Positions 44,632-54,627 of a stretch of DNA of 64,000 bases are shown here, piece by piece. Position numbers and translations under genes: made by a program. The stretch is from Candidatus Cloacimonadota bacterium. Its GTDB lineage: Bacteria > Cloacimonadota > Cloacimonadia > Cloacimonadales > Cloacimonadaceae. The stretch spans positions 1 to 64,000 of the forward strand of contig JAJBAY010000002.1 of the NCBI GenBank assembly GCA_020532515.1, in the 5' to 3' direction. How positions within the stretch are numbered: position 1 is the stretch's first letter; every line of letters begins with the position of its first letter. The notes under the pieces were generated by a model. It ran no database searches. It saw nothing but the letters and a program-made list of their open reading frames with translations, and was not told the DNA's origin.

Positions 44632-44662
44632 CCAGCATGTTGACAAACTGTCCACATGCTGG
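44632..44662 (+). promoter_or_regulatory. Inverted repeat over the abiEi ribosome site
   Basis: CCAGCATG (44632-44639) and CATGCTGG (44655-44662) are exact inverted half-sites around 15 nt. The right half overlaps GGAGG, the ribosome site of abiEi (ATG at 44670). TTGACA lies at 44621 and again in the loop at 44640. AbiEi proteins autorepress by binding inverted repeats, and this is the obvious site. Confidence 0.65.
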
Positions 44663-44669
44663 AGGTAAG

Positions 44670-45284
44670 ATGATAGCAGAATTGATGAAAGTGACTGAGC
44701 AGCCCTTTGATTACCAGTATCTTTGCGGCTTGCTGCAAGACTACAAGTACCCCCGCAATAAAATATCCAGCTTAATAAGCTCTGGAGAGTTAATTGCGCT
44801 CAAACGGGGCTTGTATATATTGAGCGAGCAATACAATAAGCAAGTAATACCGGAAGTGGTGGCAAATGCACTGTATGGCCCCTCCTATATCTCAACTGAT
44901 TATGCCCTGGCATACTACGGTATGATACCAGAACGCGCCTATAACATCGGCTCTGTTACAACCGGTAGAAGGAAGCTATATCATACAAAGCTCGGCACTT
45001 ATACTTATCGATCCCTGAAGCTTTCCTATTACCAAACAGCTTATCATATCCAAAACAAAGGGGGCACGAACTTCCTTATTGCCACACCGGAAAAGGCACT
45101 GTGTGACCAGCTTTATTTCTATCCTGTCCAGGCCGGAACTCTAGAGCTTGAACACGCTCTCAGCACAGACTTACGTATTGATTACGATACGATGCAGAGT
45201 CTATCGGGCAGTCTGATTCTGAAGATTGCGAAAATTGCAAATTCCACCAATCTCAATCTCTTAAGTAAAATGGTAAAACAATGA
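44670..45284 (+). CDS. abiEi: AbiEi-type antitoxin/transcriptional repressor
   Basis: About 204 residues. An N-terminal winged helix (about 10-55: YKYPRNKISSLISSGELIALKRGLY) is followed by the AbiEi C-terminal domain (YGPSYISTDYALAYYGMIPE, IATPEKALCDQLY), as in type IV antitoxins. The start is the ATG behind GGAGGTAAG; a frame from 44637 would start inside the operator. The stop overlaps the toxin start (ATGA). It represses the operon and counters the nucleotidyltransferase. Confidence 0.88.
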   Translation: MIAELMKVTEQPFDYQYLCGLLQDYKYPRNKISSLISSGELIALKRGLYILSEQYNKQVIPEVVANALYGPSYISTDYALAYYGMIPERAYNIGSVTTGRRKLYHTKLGTYTYRSLKLSYYQTAYHIQNKGGTNFLIATPEKALCDQLYFYPVQAGTLELEHALSTDLRIDYDTMQSLSGSLILKIAKIANSTNLNLLSKMVKQ

Positions 45285-46153
45285 TTAAGAATCAAGCCCT
45301 TACAGCACTGATAGAAAGCCATTCGCCAAAGACCAAGGCCGAATATAAGCAGGCTCTGCTGGTCGCTATGCAGGAGATTTGTCTATTAGGCTTGTGGCGC
45401 AGTGGTTTCTTTGAGCATGCTGCCTTTTATGGTGGTACTGCGCTCAGTTTATTTCACGGCCTGGACCGCTTCTCAGAAGACCTGGATTTTTCGTTGCTAA
45501 AGCCCTTGCCGGAATTCTCGCTAAGTGCTTTTCTGGCCGGAGTTCGCCAGGAATTAGGCGCGTGGGGTATAGATGCAGATCTTGCTATGGTGCAGAAGAC
45601 AAGCGGCAGCATACAAACAGCTAATATCAAGGCTAATACGCTGTCTGTGATGGAGTCCATTTCGCTTCCTGTCCATATACTGAAGAGCTTTCACAGGGAT
45701 GAAATCAGCCATGTGAAGTTTGAATTGGACCCGAATCCACCTTGCAATTTCGCCACTGAGATGAAGTTCTTGCTGTCTCCCATACCCTTCAGTGTCAGGA
45801 TTATGAGCCCCCCTGATCTCTATGCGGGGAAAATGCATGCGCTTCTGGTACGTAACTGGCAGAATCGCGTGAAGGGCCGGGATTGGTATGATTTTATCTG
45901 GTTTGTTAAGCATGAGATTGCGCTAAACCTAAGTCATCTCGAAGCACGCTTGAAGCAGAGCGGCCATCTGGATCTTGACGCTACATTGACGATAGCTCAA
46001 TTCTCTAAGCTGATGCAGAAACGTATAAGAACAGTAGATTATGAGCAGGCTAAGCAGGATGTCTTACCCTTTATTATGGATCCGCGTCAGCTGGAAAACT
46101 GGTCAAAGGAGCTCTTTGCGCAGCTTGCCGAGGCAATAACTCTCCAGGAATAA
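45281..46153 (+). CDS. abiEii: AbiEii-type nucleotidyltransferase toxin
   Basis: 290 residues with the nucleotidyltransferase core FYGGTALSLFHGL followed by RFSEDLDFSLL near residues 48-70, the third acidic residue in VKFELDPNP, and the helical KMHALLVRNWQNRVKGRDWYD region with RDxxD. It is the toxin of the abiE pair and may act as phage defence by abortive infection. Translationally coupled to abiEi. Confidence 0.88.
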   Translation: MIKNQALTALIESHSPKTKAEYKQALLVAMQEICLLGLWRSGFFEHAAFYGGTALSLFHGLDRFSEDLDFSLLKPLPEFSLSAFLAGVRQELGAWGIDADLAMVQKTSGSIQTANIKANTLSVMESISLPVHILKSFHRDEISHVKFELDPNPPCNFATEMKFLLSPIPFSVRIMSPPDLYAGKMHALLVRNWQNRVKGRDWYDFIWFVKHEIALNLSHLEARLKQSGHLDLDATLTIAQFSKLMQKRIRTVDYEQAKQDVLPFIMDPRQLENWSKELFAQLAEAITLQE

Positions 46154-46468
46154 CTACAGAATATCAAGTTATTTTCCAAACCTTGGTACCCTGAGTTGCA
46201 AACGCCTGTTTTCAATTCGGCAGAGCTTCACAATATTCGCCAACCACAGCATAAACACATAACGAAATCCGTGCAATTCCGTCCACTCTTGTGACTATTA
46301 ATTCAGGGCTAATCCAGATAATGGTCAAAAAGTTCTTGACAAGCAGATCAGCATTGGTTTAAATGGAACCAGATAGCTTATTAACTCATAGTAAATAACT
46401 TAGTAAGACCATAATGAGCGATAACAGCTCTTCAACCCAGACTCAAAATCGGGAAGAAAGGAAAGAAT
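46154..46468. other. Intergenic region: duplicated promoter-leader segment
   Basis: 315 bp. From about 46250 to the start codon at 46469 it aligns block by block with 53245-53455, including AAATCCGT, GATAATCCAG-like, TCAAAAAGT(T/C)CTTGACAA, ATTAACT and ATGAGC followed by the gene's ribosome site. Confidence 0.75.
46336..46364 (+). promoter_or_regulatory. Promoter of the HTH-M29 gene
   Basis: TTGACA at 46336-46341, a 17-bp spacer and TTAAAT at 46359-46364. The equivalent positions at 53321 and 53344 are conserved. Confidence 0.6.
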
Positions 46469-46527
46469 ATGATAAAAAACGTAAAGATAGTCTCAGAGCA
46501 CGCACAAGTGATGGAACTCGCCAATGA
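46414..46527 (+). other. Possible leader open frame, copy 1
   Basis: ATG at 46414 opens a 37-codon frame, MSDNSSSTQTQNREERKE at its start, whose first 17 codons align without gaps with the frame at 53399. It runs past the ATG of the next gene in another frame and ends at 46527. Whether it is translated is unknown. Confidence 0.4.
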
Positions 46528-47848
46528 ACTCAAGTTTGAAATGCTGAAAGAATTGATCCGCTCCGCCGCCACCTGTCAGCAATTGGCCACAGCTTTTGGG
46601 GAAAGTAAGCAGAAAGTGCATTACCACCTGAACAAACTGCTGGAAGCCGGCTTGATCAAACTGGTGGAAGATATCCACGCCAACGGTAAAGAGGTTTACT
46701 ATCGTGCCACCGCCAAGAATTTCGTGCTGGATTTTGCCTTGGGCGAGCATCTGAGTGAAGGCACCATCAATGGCCGGGGTGTGATTCAGAGCATTTTGGA
46801 AAGCGAATACAGATTGCCTCTTTCCGCGATCGCTGCCCGTCTTTTGAAGGATTCGCTGAAGCTGAAAGCGCGCCAGAAACTGCTCATCGTTACCGGAAAA
46901 TACAATCTGCCTTTGGTGGAAAAGATTCTTTTGGAAGCAGGGCGCATGGGTATCCACACTACGGTGATCTATCAGAATACCGAATTGCTCAAAGCCAAGT
47001 TCGAAGAATATTCTCTCCCTGCTTTCAATGCGGATTATGAGCACTTTAACCGTTTGCTGAAAAGCAGTGACGTCTATCTCAATCTCAATGGCGAAGCCCG
47101 CAATGTCCAGCTGCTTGATAAGGACAAGATAAAACTGAGAATCGGCCATTTTGCCAAAAGCGGGCAGATCATCCAGCAAAAGAAAATCCGGGTAGCGATG
47201 ATGCCGGGGCTGCTGCGAGACACTTTATCGGATAAATCCATCGAGAGTGAGCTGCAATTCTGGAAAGCTTTGGATATAGATTATGAACAGCTCAGCAAAG
47301 ACACCATCGAAGTCTGTGCCAAATACCAGGACAATGAATATCTGGAGCTGACCGGCCAAAATACGCGGCTGCGCTACGGTGTACAGAGCATCTTCGCCGA
47401 GACCGGATCCTTTACGAACCATCCCTGCCAGAGCCCGGTGATTAACTATCCCGGCGGTGAAGTCCTGATGGTTCCCGTACCTTTTAGCATGAATGGAGAA
47501 ATCAAAGGAGATGTGGCTTACGCCCTGGGCGAACAGATTCTGGAGCCGCATCTGCTGATCGAAAACAACGAAATCAAGCGTTTTTCAGCCAAAAGCAATG
47601 AAAAGCTGCTGGCCAAAGCCATTATCGCCGGAGGCCTGGACGGACGCAAGATCGCCCTCATCTGCCTGGGCACAAATCCCAATGTCTCTCTGGGAAATAT
47701 AGATCTGTCTTTCAAACAAAAATCCCGCGGTCTGCTCTCTGTGTATTGGGGAAACAACCGCTCTCTGGGCGGTGATGTAACTGGCAATGTTGAATGGTTT
47801 TTGCAGATCGAAAAGCCTGAACTAATCACTAATCAAAGTACGAGGTAA
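46469..47848 (+). CDS. Winged-helix regulator fused to a metal-deficient M29 aminopeptidase-like domain
   Basis: 459 residues. Residues 1-85 are an ArsR-like winged helix (ATCQQLATAFGESKQKVHYHLNKL, in part ESKQKVHYHLNKL). From about 110 the fold follows the M29 aminopeptidase family (LPLVEKILLEAGRMGIHTTVIY; INYPGGEVLMVPVP with E331 at the first metal-ligand position). The C-terminal ligands look lost: GTVHIAFG-type reads GLLSVYWG and the SxxHWD-type reads GNVEWF. It is probably a transcription factor that senses a peptide or other ligand with a dead enzyme domain. Two large secreted proteins follow in the same direction, 2 bp and 3.3 kb on. Confidence 0.75.
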   Translation: MIKNVKIVSEHAQVMELANELKFEMLKELIRSAATCQQLATAFGESKQKVHYHLNKLLEAGLIKLVEDIHANGKEVYYRATAKNFVLDFALGEHLSEGTINGRGVIQSILESEYRLPLSAIAARLLKDSLKLKARQKLLIVTGKYNLPLVEKILLEAGRMGIHTTVIYQNTELLKAKFEEYSLPAFNADYEHFNRLLKSSDVYLNLNGEARNVQLLDKDKIKLRIGHFAKSGQIIQQKKIRVAMMPGLLRDTLSDKSIESELQFWKALDIDYEQLSKDTIEVCAKYQDNEYLELTGQNTRLRYGVQSIFAETGSFTNHPCQSPVINYPGGEVLMVPVPFSMNGEIKGDVAYALGEQILEPHLLIENNEIKRFSAKSNEKLLAKAIIAGGLDGRKIALICLGTNPNVSLGNIDLSFKQKSRGLLSVYWGNNRSLGGDVTGNVEWFLQIEKPELITNQSTR

Positions 47849-47850
47849 AA

Positions 47851-50800
47851 ATGAAAACGAGAATAATCGCAATACTCCTTTTTCTCATGTGCACAAGCCT
47901 GCTTTTGGCGCAGTGGCACATAGATGAAGGCTTTGAAGACAGCCCCAATCTGCCCGCAGGATGGACTACTCATGACGATGGCGATGGCAGCATCTGGCGC
48001 GTGATCACAAACAATCCCCATAGCGGCATTCGCGCGGCTTTTGTAGATAACTACCTGCCAAATCAAAATCATGACTGGCTGGTGACACCGCAAATCACGG
48101 TGAACGCAGGCGACTATCTGGAATTCTACACCCGCGCCTGGTACGGCACCGAAAATCTGAAAGTGTATGTATCCACCAGCGGAACTCAAATCAACAATTT
48201 CAATACAATGCTGCTGCATATGCAAAACCTGAATACCACATATCAGATGGGAACCGTCTCTCTGGATAGCTATGCCGGGCAGAATATCTACCTGGCTTTC
48301 TATTGGGAATGCGATACTTACGGCATCTTGATCGATGATGTGAAGGTGGGACAGATTCCCACGGTGACTCCGGAGCTCAATCTGCCGGACACCATCAGCT
48401 TTTATCAAAGTGATCTGCTGCAGATGGATTTTAGCCCCTATATCGTGGTGACGGATCCAGCCTCAGCCAGCCTCAGCGTGAGTGGAAATACCAATATCAC
48501 AGTGAACATCTCCGGACTTAACGTAGCCTTCAGCGCTCCGGACTATGTCGGCAGCGAAGAGCTGACCTTCACGCTGCTGGACACAGAAAGCAACCAGACT
48601 GCGACGGATATGATCTCCGTGAGCGTCCTGGCCGATCCCACGGCGGATCTGTATGTCTCGCAGGTCATTTATCCCCGCTATCATGAATTCGTGGGCCTGC
48701 CTTTCATGCCAGAGATCAGAGTTGGCAATGCCGGCACAAATACTTTCAGCGGCAGCATAGAGATCGTACTGAATGTCTCCAATGATCTCGAGGAAAGCCT
48801 GCACATCGATACCGCTATCATAGACGCAGAGATCCTGCCCGATGCCAGCGTTACGGTGAATTTCTCCCAAACCTTTACCCCGCTGGAGATCGGCCACCTG
48901 AATTACAGCTTCCACATCCTCACCCAGGACGATAATCCGGATAACAACAGCTTTACCTATATCGGCGAAGTGGTGATCCGTGAAAGTTCCGGCGGGCCCG
49001 ATGATTTCGGCTATCGTTATATAGATAGCAATGAACCCCTGGGGCCAGAGTATGAGTGGATCGAGATCAGCGAAACCGGAGTCTCCACCATCATGTATGG
49101 CGTGAATGCTTTCCATGGCGATGATAACTTCAGCGAGCCCATCCCCCTGGGTTTTGATTTCCCCTTCTATGGTAGTACTTACTCCAGCGCCTATGTGGAT
49201 ATCAACGGCGAAATTCTGCTGGCGGATAATAGCTGGTACACCAATTTCCCCGGTTCCGGCTGGGGCGGAGATGGTAATATGTTCAACTATATGTACCCCA
49301 TCCCAGGCTACGCGCAAATGCCGGGTTTGATCGCCGTCTATTGGGATGATCTGGAAGCAGACGAGGGCACTGGTGATGTCTATTTCCAGAGCTTTGGCAC
49401 CGCACCGGAGCGTTATACAATCTTTCAGTGGAATGATTTGAGATTCAGAGCTGGGACTGGAGCTGAGGAGCTCTTGAAATTCCAGGTAATCCTGCATGAA
49501 AATGGTGATCTCAAAATGCAATATCACACTGTAGCCACCGGACAGACTGGCGCTACCATCCCTCACGACCACGGGCGTAGCTCCACCATCGCCATCCAAA
49601 ATGCAGCGGCGAATGCCGGGCTATGCTATCTGCGAGAGATCGTGCAAGGCAGTACATATATCGGGGTAGAGCCTGCCGGAAACCTGCTGCACGATGGTCT
49701 GGCCATTCTCTTCTATAGTGGTGAGGATACCCAAGCCCCCATCATCACCCACAAAGCGGCGGGAAATACCTTCTCTCAGGATATCCTGCTCACAGCCCGC
49801 ATCATGGATATGAGCGAAATCGCTCAGGCCACTATGTATTATGATCTTGGCGCGGGATGGCAGTCCATCACTTATACAGAATTAGAGCAAAATGACTACA
49901 GTTTCGCCGTGGCTGATCTGCCTCAAGGTGCCATCTTCAGATACTACTTTGAGGCTATCGATGCCGAAGGTAATCTGAGCCGCTTGCCTATTGACGCTCC
50001 CAACGAATATTATGGCTTCCAGATTTTACCCACTGCGAATGCTCAGGTACTGATCGCCTATAGCGGCATTCAGGATTATCAGCGTATCGAATTGCCCATC
50101 TATGAGGCACTCCTGCAAGAGCTTCAGATCGGCTATGATGTCTATAACTGGGAAGAGTACGATGAGTACGCTATCGATCCCCAATATGCAGGCGTGCTGG
50201 CCTATGCGAATACCGGCTCAGCAAATGACAAGATGAGATATTTTGCTGGTGTTTTGATGAACTATTTGGACCTGGGCACAGCTCAGAGTCCCAAAAACCT
50301 CTGGTTCTCCTCCGATGGCCTGGCCTCCTCTCAACATGGGCATAGCAATTCCAGCCCCATCCGCAGGCTGATGAGTGGCTATTTCCGCACTTCTTATGTT
50401 GCCACCGGATTCGGCGGCGGCACAAACGGTCTGGGTGGCCCCGATAACTTCAGCTATGAACACGGCACCATCAAGGCCTTGCCGGGAACTCCGGTAGGTA
50501 CCGCCGGCCTGGAATATCCCGTCTATGCGAATTCCCCGGATTGCATCTTCCCCGATGACGCTGCCGGAGACCCATATTACGATGATGTGCCTTATCCTGA
50601 GATTGGCGCAAACTACGTCTATGCCTTTGAAGATGGCCCCATCAATGGAGATGCTTATCTTTACCATGGCGTAGCCGCTACCACTGTGGATACCCCTGCC
50701 TACCGCACCATGTATTTCAGCTTTGACTTCTCTCAATTGACGAGTGCTGCCCATAGGCAAGAGTGGATGGATGATCTGATGTCCTGGTGGAATATCACTC

Positions 50801-51111
50801 CCACTGCTACTTCCGATGCATTCGCTCCGACAGTCAGCAGCGGATTGGACAGCATCTATCCGAACCCCTTCAACCCCAGCACCACTATTCGCTACAATAT
50901 CGCAGTAGCCGAAAGAGTAGGCCTGAATATATATAACCTCAGAGGACAAAAAGTAAAAACACTAATCAACGAAAGTAAAACCGCAGGAAGCCATACCACA
51001 AGCTGGGATGGCACAGATGAAGCCGGAAATCCTGTAGCCAGTGGAGTCTATTATCTGCGCCTTGAGACCAGTACAACGCGTGAAACACGCAAATTAACCA
51101 TGATCAAATAA
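47851..51111 (+). CDS. Large secreted multidomain protein with type IX/FlgD-like sorting domain
   Basis: 1086 residues: signal peptide (1-20), a choice-of-anchor-J/cleaved-adhesin-like beta-sandwich (about 22-170: EGFEDSPNLPAGWTTHDDGD), Ig/CARDB-like modules (about 180-375), a nidogen-like beta domain (about 390-640: PIPLGFDFPFYGSTY), a region of unknown fold with many Tyr/Asn (about 640-990), and the C-terminal FlgD-like sorting domain (YPNPFNPSTTIRYN to KLTMIK). It is exported and probably surface-attached via a type IX-like system. It starts 2 bp after the regulator gene. Confidence 0.85.
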   Translation: MKTRIIAILLFLMCTSLLLAQWHIDEGFEDSPNLPAGWTTHDDGDGSIWRVITNNPHSGIRAAFVDNYLPNQNHDWLVTPQITVNAGDYLEFYTRAWYGTENLKVYVSTSGTQINNFNTMLLHMQNLNTTYQMGTVSLDSYAGQNIYLAFYWECDTYGILIDDVKVGQIPTVTPELNLPDTISFYQSDLLQMDFSPYIVVTDPASASLSVSGNTNITVNISGLNVAFSAPDYVGSEELTFTLLDTESNQTATDMISVSVLADPTADLYVSQVIYPRYHEFVGLPFMPEIRVGNAGTNTFSGSIEIVLNVSNDLEESLHIDTAIIDAEILPDASVTVNFSQTFTPLEIGHLNYSFHILTQDDNPDNNSFTYIGEVVIRESSGGPDDFGYRYIDSNEPLGPEYEWIEISETGVSTIMYGVNAFHGDDNFSEPIPLGFDFPFYGSTYSSAYVDINGEILLADNSWYTNFPGSGWGGDGNMFNYMYPIPGYAQMPGLIAVYWDDLEADEGTGDVYFQSFGTAPERYTIFQWNDLRFRAGTGAEELLKFQVILHENGDLKMQYHTVATGQTGATIPHDHGRSSTIAIQNAAANAGLCYLREIVQGSTYIGVEPAGNLLHDGLAILFYSGEDTQAPIITHKAAGNTFSQDILLTARIMDMSEIAQATMYYDLGAGWQSITYTELEQNDYSFAVADLPQGAIFRYYFEAIDAEGNLSRLPIDAPNEYYGFQILPTANAQVLIAYSGIQDYQRIELPIYEALLQELQIGYDVYNWEEYDEYAIDPQYAGVLAYANTGSANDKMRYFAGVLMNYLDLGTAQSPKNLWFSSDGLASSQHGHSNSSPIRRLMSGYFRTSYVATGFGGGTNGLGGPDNFSYEHGTIKALPGTPVGTAGLEYPVYANSPDCIFPDDAAGDPYYDDVPYPEIGANYVYAFEDGPINGDAYLYHGVAATTVDTPAYRTMYFSFDFSQLTSAAHRQEWMDDLMSWWNITPTATSDAFAPTVSSGLDSIYPNPFNPSTTIRYNIAVAERVGLNIYNLRGQKVKTLINESKTAGSHTTSWDGTDEAGNPVASGVYYLRLETSTTRETRKLTMIK

Positions 51112-51122
51112 GGGAGAACACC

Positions 51123-52790
51123 ATGAAAAGAACTATCGTCCTTGTCTTTAGCCTCCTGCTAAGCATCACCTTGCTTAGTGCGGGTGACTTCATCATCAAT
51201 AGTAATGATCTTGCCCAAAATCAGCTGCCAGTCTATGGCTATGCCAATTACGGCTGGAGTAAGTTCTTCTACACCAATGCAGAAATGACGGCCGCGGGCT
51301 TTACCACAGCCCAGAGCATTGAGAGAATATCCTTTTATGTGGACACTGAAACCACTGACTACGTAATGGACAATCAACTGCTGTACATGGGCTATTTCTA
51401 TGATAGCTCATGCACTACGTCTTACCAAAACCCAGCCTATCACACTCTGGTTTACTCCGGCACGGTCACGTGGACAGGTCCCGGCTGGGTGGAGATCGTA
51501 TTGGACACTCCTTATACCTGGGATCCTACCCTGGGCTGGAATCTGGAAATCCTCTGGGAAAACCGTGACGGCAGCAAGATCGCCGGACCTCCCAAATTCC
51601 GCACTACAGATACAGACGCCTACAGTTCCGCCTATAAGACTAATGATCCCTCCTTCCCCACAAGCACAGGTACTCGCAAAAAGTACCACCCCGATATCTG
51701 GTTTGCCTCTGCTGCTACCGAGCCACCCACCCCCGCTGAAGCGCTGAAACCTCTCCATGAAGCTATAGATGTGGAGATCACCACGAACCTGCGCTGGCAA
51801 CACACCGGAGGTTCACCATATCAGTATCTGCTCTGGTTCGGTACAGACAATCCCCCTTCCAATCTCGAAAACGGCCTGGTAACCACCGCTACCAGCTATA
51901 CCCCCGCTGAACGTCTGCAGTATGATACCACTTACTATTGGAAAGTGGTTCCCCAAAATAGCATTGCTCCGGCTATGAATTGCCCCGTCTGGAGTTTCAC
52001 CACCATGGCAGACCCTGCCATCGTCACCTATCCACATCTGGAAAGCTTTGATGGTGCCTTCCCTCCCACAGGATGGGAGCTCTACTCTGGCACGCTTTCG
52101 GACCCCTCAGACATGGGCGTGAGCGGCTCCAGCCGCTGGGGACAGAAGAACTGGCTCAATATATCTGGAGATGATAAAGCAGCAGGCATCAATATCTGGG
52201 GATCCATGAGCGGTTATATCATCTCCCCCTTCTTCAATATCCCTTCCGATGATTATGTCCTGCAGTTCGATGCCGCTCTTTTGAAATACGGCCAAACTCC
52301 AGATGGAACTCCGCCCTTGCAAAACAACACCGATGACCAATTTGCCATCCTCATCGGCGATGGCTTCACCTGGAGCACTGCCAATATCGTACGTGAATAC
52401 AACAACAGCGGCTCTGACTATGTCTTGCACGACATCCCTGTCTATGGTGAAACCATCACCATCCCGCTCACAGGCCATACCGGGCATGTGCGTTTTGCCT
52501 TCTTTGCCGGCTCCCTTGAGAGTAACGATGACAATGACTTCATGCTAAACAACTTCTTCGTTGGCATACCGTCTGCACAGCTTGAGGCCCCCCTGGCCAG
52601 CATCTCCACAGATGTCAGCACGGGACTACCTCTCCTTAGCTGGGATGCGGTGCCCAATGCCACAATATATCATATATATAAAACTAATGATCCTAATCTG
52701 GATTACCTGTTTTTCGAGAGCACGAGCGAGACCACTTACCTCTTGGATCCCGCAGAAGAGAAAGCATTTTTCAAAATCACGGCAGAGTAA
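51123..52790 (+). CDS. Secreted beta-sandwich protein with FN3-like and anchor-J domains
   Basis: 555 residues: signal peptide (1-20), an N-terminal beta domain (25-195) reading like the T9SS-substrate domain IERISFYVDTETTDY, a fibronectin-III-like module (about 200-295: PLHEAIDVEITTNLRWQHTG), a choice-of-anchor-J domain (about 300-475) and a C-terminal FN3-like piece ending EKAFFKITAE. Unlike the preceding protein it has no FlgD-like sorting domain. It starts 11 bp after its neighbour with GGGAGAA upstream, and the transcript ends at the terminator at 52838. Confidence 0.8.
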   Translation: MKRTIVLVFSLLLSITLLSAGDFIINSNDLAQNQLPVYGYANYGWSKFFYTNAEMTAAGFTTAQSIERISFYVDTETTDYVMDNQLLYMGYFYDSSCTTSYQNPAYHTLVYSGTVTWTGPGWVEIVLDTPYTWDPTLGWNLEILWENRDGSKIAGPPKFRTTDTDAYSSAYKTNDPSFPTSTGTRKKYHPDIWFASAATEPPTPAEALKPLHEAIDVEITTNLRWQHTGGSPYQYLLWFGTDNPPSNLENGLVTTATSYTPAERLQYDTTYYWKVVPQNSIAPAMNCPVWSFTTMADPAIVTYPHLESFDGAFPPTGWELYSGTLSDPSDMGVSGSSRWGQKNWLNISGDDKAAGINIWGSMSGYIISPFFNIPSDDYVLQFDAALLKYGQTPDGTPPLQNNTDDQFAILIGDGFTWSTANIVREYNNSGSDYVLHDIPVYGETITIPLTGHTGHVRFAFFAGSLESNDDNDFMLNNFFVGIPSAQLEAPLASISTDVSTGLPLLSWDAVPNATIYHIYKTNDPNLDYLFFESTSETTYLLDPAEEKAFFKITAE

Positions 52791-52837: not shown

Positions 52838-52862
52838 GAGGCGTCTTGATGACGCCTCTTTT
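52838..52862 (+). terminator. Terminator of the secreted-protein operon
   Basis: GAGGCGTC paired with GACGCCTC around TTGAT, followed by TTTT. Confidence 0.9.
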
Positions 52863-53163: not shown

Positions 53164-53320
53164 AGCTATGCAGAAGGCGATTGCAAGTAAAGGGATGCAG
53201 AGTCTCACAAGCTTCGCAAACCATCTAACTACATCTAAGAATAAATGTGTAAATCCGTACGTTCCATCCATCCCTATGACCATATATTATGCGATAATCC
53301 AGCTAAAGATCAAAAAGTCC

Positions 53321-53349
53321 TTGACAAACAGCTTGGGCTTGTATTATCT
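53321..53349 (+). promoter_or_regulatory. Promoter of the AT-rich barrel gene
   Basis: TTGACA at 53321-53326, a 17-bp spacer and TTATCT at 53344-53349, conserved in position with 46336-46364. Confidence 0.6.
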
Positions 53350-53398: not shown

Positions 53399-53458
53399 AT
53401 GAGCAGCACAAGCTCATCAAAAAAGACCCAAAAACGGGAAAAAAGGAAAGGAAAATGA
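53399..53458 (+). other. Possible leader open frame, copy 2
   Basis: ATG at 53399 opens a 19-codon frame (MSSTSSSKKTQKREKRKGK). Its TGA overlaps the ATG of the barrel gene (ATGA at 53455), the window's usual coupling geometry. It aligns without gaps with 46414. Confidence 0.45.
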
Positions 53459-54627
53459 AAAGAATCGCGATCTTACTATTGGTGATACTCCCAATAGCTC
53501 TGGCATCTGTTAGTTTTACAGATTACACCAGTCCCACATCATCGGGACAGGAAGCCTTTTTAAATGGCAACTTCAACTTTAAAAGTGGAAATCAAGACCA
53601 GGCAAGCTACAATGGTTTGCTTGGAGGAAATTATTTAAATTATTATAATAGCTTGCCTATTAACTGGAGAATCGGTGCCGATGGTAACCTGGAATTACTT
53701 AGAGGTTCGGCTGATGGCGCTGAGGCTAATACCGGTTATGCTATCAAAGCCTATACCAATGCTGATAAGTATTTGAATAATTCAAATATATTTGGTTATG
53801 GCGCTCTTGATTTAGGCTATCGTAAGAACATCAATTTGGATGATGCCGATGATCCTTATGCCAAAATCGGTATTGGGGCAGGTTATGGTAGAGTCATGGA
53901 TGCTACAGTTTTATCCAAAGCCATGCGTATTGTGGATGAACTTATCAAATATGAAGTCATCAAAAACCCACTTACCACGGAAGGTTACATCGCCTTAGCT
54001 CAAATAATTGACAAAGAAGGCCAATACAAAACCCAATACGGCAGAGATGAATACAAAAAGTACTGGTACGAAGCCATGGAAGATGTCTTTAATCAAGAAA
54101 ATCTTCTCCCAGCAGGTTCACTGCACGCTTTGGGTATAATCAGACTGCAGGAAGTTCTGGATCAAAGATTCAGCAGCCGTAAATATGGCTGGACTGTACG
54201 CGCCGGGGTTGGATATATACTTTCCAGCTATGATGGCACAGATCAGGATCCATCTTTAGATGTTTCTGCTGAATATGCCTTACCGATTTCCAATAAGCTG
54301 CAATTCATAGAGCGTATGGATTATTCCACGATTCTTTCCGACGATATATCCCATACGATTTACAACAAAGCTTCTCTTACCTATGAACTTTCTTCAATGA
54401 TGGATTGGGAAAATAAGCTCATGACTGCTTTGACCATTCCCAGTGCCAGCGGTGCTAAAACAATAATTGATAATACCCTTGAATCCATATTCTACTACTA
54501 CCTGAGCAACAAGGTCAACCTTAATGCTTCCTTACGCTTCCACATGCTTGATGACGGCGTAAAAGACAACGGTAACGATGATTTGGACATGACTTTCTTT
54601 GTAGGAGCTACCTACAGACTGAGATAA
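53455..54627 (+). CDS. Outer-membrane beta-barrel protein, AT-rich
   Basis: 390 residues with a signal peptide (KRIAILLLVILPIALAS). Barrel-like strands (YGWTVRAGVGYILSS, LTYELSSMMDWENKL, VNLNASLRFHML) lead to the C-terminal FFVGATYRLR. A helical insert rich in Lys/Tyr/Glu (about 150-230) interrupts the barrel. Codon use is visibly more A/T-ending than in flanking genes, which suggests recent acquisition. The family is not recognised. A bidirectional terminator follows. Confidence 0.68.
   Translation: MKRIAILLLVILPIALASVSFTDYTSPTSSGQEAFLNGNFNFKSGNQDQASYNGLLGGNYLNYYNSLPINWRIGADGNLELLRGSADGAEANTGYAIKAYTNADKYLNNSNIFGYGALDLGYRKNINLDDADDPYAKIGIGAGYGRVMDATVLSKAMRIVDELIKYEVIKNPLTTEGYIALAQIIDKEGQYKTQYGRDEYKKYWYEAMEDVFNQENLLPAGSLHALGIIRLQEVLDQRFSSRKYGWTVRAGVGYILSSYDGTDQDPSLDVSAEYALPISNKLQFIERMDYSTILSDDISHTIYNKASLTYELSSMMDWENKLMTALTIPSASGAKTIIDNTLESIFYYYLSNKVNLNASLRFHMLDDGVKDNGNDDLDMTFFVGATYRLR

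Follow-up and report, generated by a model that had tools for sequence, protein, structure and literature searches.

The window analysed here is a 64,000-nucleotide stretch of DNA from a member of the Cloacimonadota, a little-studied and mostly uncultured phylum that is common in anaerobic digesters. On its forward strand, positions 46469–47848 encode a 459-aa protein, hereafter called the regulator, in which a winged helix is followed by an apparently dead M29-type domain. Directly downstream and on the same strand lie the genes of a 1086-aa secreted protein (gene 2, 47851–51111) and, 11 bp further, of a 555-aa exported protein with no family match (gene 3, 51123–52790), as the original prediction had stated. 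Gene 3 is followed by a terminator-like hairpin (52838–52858, + strand), which matches the consensus, the number of such matches in our scan being at the chance level. Further downstream, still on the + strand, a gene at 53455–54627 encodes a 390-aa exported DUF481-like barrel of the outer-membrane type (Pfam DUF481, E 2e-4).

The reading frame stands at the expected coordinates, and the union of a winged helix with an M29-like domain, first proposed from the letters of the sequence, is borne out by Pfam, PDB alignment, profile-profile alignment and structural matching. Pfam HTH_20 covers residues 17–66 (46517–46666, + strand) with an E-value of 8.9e-12 and HTH_5 is found at 1.7e-5, both above cut-off; in a PDB search, residues 1–94 align to PH1932 (1uly), a regulator from Pyrococcus. 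The N-terminal part is, thus, like that of PH1932-type and ArsR-like winged-helix regulators (1uly, 2oqg), whereas PH1932, with its 192 aa, has no M29 domain. The C-terminal part matches PF02073 (Peptidase_M29, E 2.1e-8) beyond the gathering score, and a profile-profile comparison of the regulator with stand-alone M29 relatives (hhalign) gives a probability of 99.7% and an E-value of 2.2e-26 over residues 119–454; together with Foldseek, this places the domain at residues 118–452 or so (46820–47824, + strand). AmpS in the PDB is matched weakly by the single regulator sequence and at E 1.6e-10 by a profile of the orthologs. The AlphaFold model is of moderate quality (pLDDT 77.6, pTM 0.69; built on 10 sequences instead of the full set of orthologs), and its Foldseek matches are AmpT (E 1.1e-17), PepS, NicX, AmpS, CgnE, and CgnB.

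A chance occurrence of the fusion is excluded, since an ortholog of the same architecture is present in about 49 Cloacimonadota genomes (49 of the 125 compared, which are largely draft assemblies): 33 of the 50 genomes of its own family, 14 of a second family (f10) and 2 of a third (f13). A second, divergent clade of fusions (clade 2, about 25% identity) occurs in the third family, and two genomes, G108 and G115, carry both clades. At the clade-2 loci (L049–L055, L058, L059, L115–L119), all five metal ligands discussed below are lost, the recognition helix is another one and the fusion gene lies between genes with T9SS tails. Outside the phylum, only stand-alone relatives were found, with open frames of 319–416 aa and without an HTH: no HTH-M29 fusion turned up in roughly 165 non-Cloacimonadota among the 290 genomes searched, four genomes of one further phylum likewise gave stand-alone relatives and no fusion, and a search of plasmids returned M29 or HTH proteins in stand-alone form only. 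Among the groups sampled, the fusion is, therefore, seen in Cloacimonadota only. In a maximum-likelihood tree of the M29 part, a split supported at 97/94 unites both fused clades, on long branches, against all the stand-alone proteins, so that the fusion probably arose once.

M29 enzymes share a catalytic set, EEHYHD, of which we scored the five metal ligands, leaving out the Tyr. Their positions in the regulator (331, 397, 424, 442, and 444) were mapped via the AmpS alignment, MAFFT and hhalign; the AmpS numbers quoted below come partly from the alignment and partly from what we take to be the numbering of the AmpS structure. We then compared these columns between 39 aligned clade-1 orthologs, the clade of our regulator, and 20 stand-alone relatives, almost all of which belong to other phyla. 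Where M29 enzymes (AmpS 1zjc, AmpT 2ayi, PepS 4icr) have E, E, H, H, and D, the regulator reads E331, L397, S424, E442, and F444; it shares their fold and their first metal-ligand Glu, and differs from them by its added N-terminal winged helix and by the replacement of four of the five ligands in 39/39 orthologs. The sole ligand kept is E331 (47459–47461, + strand; equivalent to AmpS E253), a Glu in 38 orthologs, an Asp in one, and a Glu in 19 of the 20 relatives. The second ligand Glu (AmpS E319), which the original prediction did not mention, is replaced by L397 (47657–47659, + strand; L in 36 orthologs, F in two, T in one), the relatives having E in 19/20. S424 (47738–47740, + strand) stands in place of a ligand His, with S in 24 orthologs and T in 15 vs H in 19/20 relatives. 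Finally, the column counts show that E442-W443-F444 (47792–47800, + strand) takes the place of the ligand H-x-D: position 442 is E in 38 orthologs and N in one (H in 17/20 relatives), W443 is conserved in 38/39, and position 444 is F in 23, Q in seven and other residues in the rest, D being found in 0/39 orthologs vs 18/20 relatives.

The original prediction had E331 kept and the late ligands replaced, and both points hold. Ligands at shifted positions, all of them present, were one observation it had named as able to overturn it; this is ruled out, as the MAFFT and hhalign profile-profile alignments agree and every column is anchored by invariant residues close by (P328, G330, G401, N403, and G428). 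A sequencing error or a pseudogene is likewise ruled out by the same pattern in the 39 orthologs with open frames. In LmAmpII, an M29 enzyme from Listeria, an alanine at any of E250, E316, H345, Y352, H378, or D380 abolishes activity (PMC7023490). Given that four ligands are lost throughout the orthologs and that the loss of a single residue is enough to abolish LmAmpII activity (PMC7023490), these alignments make it very unlikely that the domain is an M29 aminopeptidase.

Two other M29-type proteins came to our attention. In the same genome, a 678-aa M29-family protein (L060 1228–3264, − strand; G000:C148) has a long extra N-terminal region and five metal-ligand motifs that appear intact; it is a possible active counterpart of the dead regulator. 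In another phylum, a stand-alone M29-type protein (L066 722–1795, − strand), with a T9SS-tailed gene nearby, has C, H, F, and N for E, E, H, and H, and is maybe an independently disarmed M29.

A domain that has lost peptidase ligands could also be a catalyst of another kind with a remodelled site, like the M29-related 2,5-dihydroxypyridine dioxygenase NicX (7cn3); NicX structures indeed rank with the best structural matches, and the regulator has a C-terminal motif, GxN-x-SxGG, that resembles that of a short stand-alone subgroup. NicX is an active metal enzyme, however, and enzymes of its type require His/Asp metal ligands, whereas the positions aligned to them read S, E, and F in the regulator, which makes such a catalyst highly improbable. 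As E331 and E442 are all but invariant in clade 1, the two residues may still bind a cation or the amino group of a peptide. These two invariant carboxylates at former ligand positions, perhaps with S/T424, could hold one metal in the manner of an ArsR/SmtB-style metal sensor, and the HTH does match the HTH_metalloreg model weakly. At 29.8 bits, that match falls well short of the curated cut-off of 55; of the old ligands, neither His remains, nor does the second Glu or the Asp; and the predicted targets described below are surface proteins and not metal efflux genes. We regard a metal sensor as quite unlikely.

The old cleft nevertheless seems to be under some constraint. The pocket residues PGGE331, GTN403, W427-G428, and E442-W443 are near-invariant in clade 1, and the old ligand loops have a lower mean entropy than the rest of the domain (1.07 vs 1.45 bits, p 0.008), the counts of invariant residues giving a weaker signal (Fisher p 0.058); this slightly higher conservation hints at a retained pocket. 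One has to weigh against it a simpler role, in which the M29-type domain would sense no ligand and would only be a dimer scaffold positioning the winged helices of a simple autorepressor that holds the operon at a set level. The part through which M29 enzymes dimerise, the N-terminal one (PMC10070186), is retained in the regulator, and clade 2 has lost even E331 and kept the gene, both in line with a scaffold; the near-invariant pocket residues and the lower entropy of the ligand loops suggest, on the contrary, that in clade 1 the cleft was kept for something, and we find a scaffold devoid of sensing rather unlikely.

Gene 2 encodes a choice-of-anchor J/Cleaved_Adhesin domain at the N-terminus, a middle domain without family and a T9SS type A sorting domain at the C-terminus (TIGR04183, 40.5 bits vs 23; Por_Secre_tail, 31.9 vs 27). 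A gene 2 ortholog directly follows the regulator in 34/34 readable clade-1 loci, on the same strand, mostly within about 20 bp and 38–90% identical to window 47851–51111. Clade-2 fusions are likewise found among T9SS-tailed genes, so the association of the fusion with T9SS genes may predate either clade. The genes upstream of the regulator vary between genomes, and the neighbourhood on that side was, thus, dropped as a guide to its function. In our window, a two-gene unit directly upstream (44637–46153) encodes 215 aa that match nothing in Pfam and a nucleotidyltransferase of the AbiEii type (PF08843, E 9.8e-35); the two resemble a type IV toxin-antitoxin or abortive infection pair and, among the loci compared, are shared with the closest relative (G041) only. 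As for the middle domain of gene 2 (window 50011–50850), it has invariant GGGTNGL and PDC motifs; naming it by its fold gave nothing firm (pLDDT 66.7, with weak PurE/flavodoxin-like and ThuA-like matches only).

Upstream of the regulator, we found operator 1, TGGTCAAAAAGTTCTTGACAA (46322–46342, + strand), an inverted repeat TGGTC-N9-TTGAC that is conserved in front of almost every clade-1 ortholog. Common to the upstream regions of the orthologs is TGGTCAAAAAGTTCTTGAC[A/T]A; the repeat in it is imperfect, and its right half is at the same time a TTGACA-like box. In our window, this putative −35 box, read from the sequence, is TTGACA at 46336–46341 (+ strand) and overlaps the right half; a scan for a consensus promoter pair found none. 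Since the right half is also the −35 box, part of the conservation of the operator must be that of the promoter. The second family has the repeat in a nearly perfect form (TTGGTCTA...TTTGACCAA), some 44 bp ahead of the start codon and just downstream of a TTGACA.

The site is tied to the regulator by its distribution. With at most one mismatch, the 50 genomes of the family contain 28 operator sites, 22 of which directly precede the regulator, at no more than 150 bp, vs one match for the reversed-motif control; of the 33 genomes that carry the regulator, 23 have a site, and of the 17 that lack it, two. The second family has nine exact sites, eight at the regulator gene and one at a contig end. 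The 2.33-Mb genome from which our window comes has, with up to three mismatches, two matches only, at 46322–46342 and 53307–53327. Some genomes have a degenerate site with a score of 11 of 16, which is also reached by 400-bp background pieces, and the third-family ortholog L104 has no operator site. The recognition helix of clade 1, S46-K47-Q48-K49-x-H51-Y52, hardly varies; that of clade 2 is another one, and its fusion genes have no operator site upstream, so that operator and recognition helix change together between the clades. From these patterns, we infer that the regulator binds the conserved inverted repeat. The original prediction is, thus, supported in part, namely for a probable transcription factor that is linked to genes of secreted proteins and whose M29 domain has lost its catalytic metal site; the strict linkage to the partner gene in clade-1 loci and the operator upstream are new and go beyond it.

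Operator 2, AGATCAAAAAGTCCTTGACAA (53307–53327, + strand), the only other match in the genome to a pattern of which chance would give 0.02 per window, precedes the barrel gene 53455–54627, a predicted second target, by 148 bp, vs 147 bp between operator 1 and the regulator gene. Its promoter-leader region is a copy of that of operator 1, the two being 72% identical over 151 nt (E 6e-17). Both leaders (46414–46468 and 53399–53454) contain ATGAGC...GCTC followed by a short frame (MS..SS..TQ.RE.RK) overlapping the main start codon, which may be a leader peptide or else a hairpin; this arrangement is not evident in more distant orthologs. As homologs of gene 53455 in G041, G015, and G047 have no operator, this target seems specific to its own genome. 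In three related genomes (G001, G004, and G009), the operator precedes a 914–972-aa paralog of gene 3 that is 46–51% identical to it. Neither these paralogs nor gene 53455 took part in the definition of the motif. Two other operator-like sites were set aside as probably due to chance, one inside a coding region (G046) and one that overlaps the beginning of a gene for a solute-binding protein (G006).

Taken together, we consider it probable that the regulator is a self-regulating one-component repressor of a surface-protein operon with its dead M29-type domain as the sensor. The winged helices of a dimer would bind TGGTC-N9-TTGAC over the −35 region of their own promoter; a dimer on an inverted repeat would come naturally, because the dimerising N-terminal part of the M29 fold is retained. 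The bound regulator would shut off the three-gene operon, made of the regulator itself, the 1086-aa T9SS-type surface protein and the 555-aa exported protein, and, in its own genome, would also repress the adjacent outer-membrane-type gene 53455–54627. Lying over the −35 box or just behind it, the repeat points to a steric block as the means of repression, with autoregulation. Activation of the operon instead of its repression would find a place in our own family, where the left half-site is upstream of the −35 box and could seat an activator; the right half covering that box, and the whole repeat lying downstream of TTGACA in the second family, favour repression, and activation seems to us an unlikely outcome. 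In the repressor we propose, the M29-type domain, whose aminopeptidase function would be gone with four of its five metal ligands, would be both dimer scaffold and ligand pocket, and a ligand entering the old active-site cleft would alter DNA binding.

That the domain senses a ligand is likewise our inference, and a short peptide or an amino acid is, by analogy, our first guess for the most likely class, because CgnE, another dead M29-type fold, binds a peptide; a non-peptide ligand is possible as well, since the fold relative NicX binds a pyridine. The original prediction had also named peptides as the possible ligand, an idea for which CgnE is a precedent (PMC10070186), and such a ligand might, as it proposed, couple peptide supply to export. 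A doubtful extension would be that the dead cleft reads the free N-termini of peptides accumulating in the cytoplasm, which would make an intracellular N-terminus sensor out of a disarmed aminopeptidase; if true, the expression of the surface-protein operon would be linked to peptide traffic, for example to imported peptides or to fragments connected with the export of surface proteins.

Regulators derived from recruited enzymes are already known. MocR/GabR proteins are one-component regulators with a winged helix fused to an aminotransferase fold, the same design of a recruited enzyme fold used as a sensor; the enzyme fold is different here, and the metal site of the regulator is dismantled whereas MocR proteins keep their PLP cofactor site. 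On the M29 fold, no such regulator was found described in the open-licence papers searched. The M29-derived fold is also that of CgnE and CgnB of crocagin biosynthesis (6zsu, Foldseek E 7.4e-9; 6zsv, E 7.2e-8). With two metal-coordinating residues lost, the metal site of CgnE is broken; the protein acts as a peptide binder in RiPP biosynthesis and binds its peptide with a KD of 1.8 uM (PMC10070186); the regulator has lost more ligands, four. Homologues of CgnB and CgnE are reported to show near full-length similarity and to have no further domains (PMC10070186), whereas the regulator has its added DNA-binding winged helix and falls outside that family definition. It is, beside CgnE, a second case of an M29 fold disarmed and kept. 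For a phylum so little studied and mostly uncultured, its anatomy is unusually complete: the partner gene is conserved, the operator is defined, the recognition helix changes along with it, and additional targets are predicted. The regulator offers a first handle on the regulation of surface proteins in Cloacimonadota and a concrete target for ligand screening.
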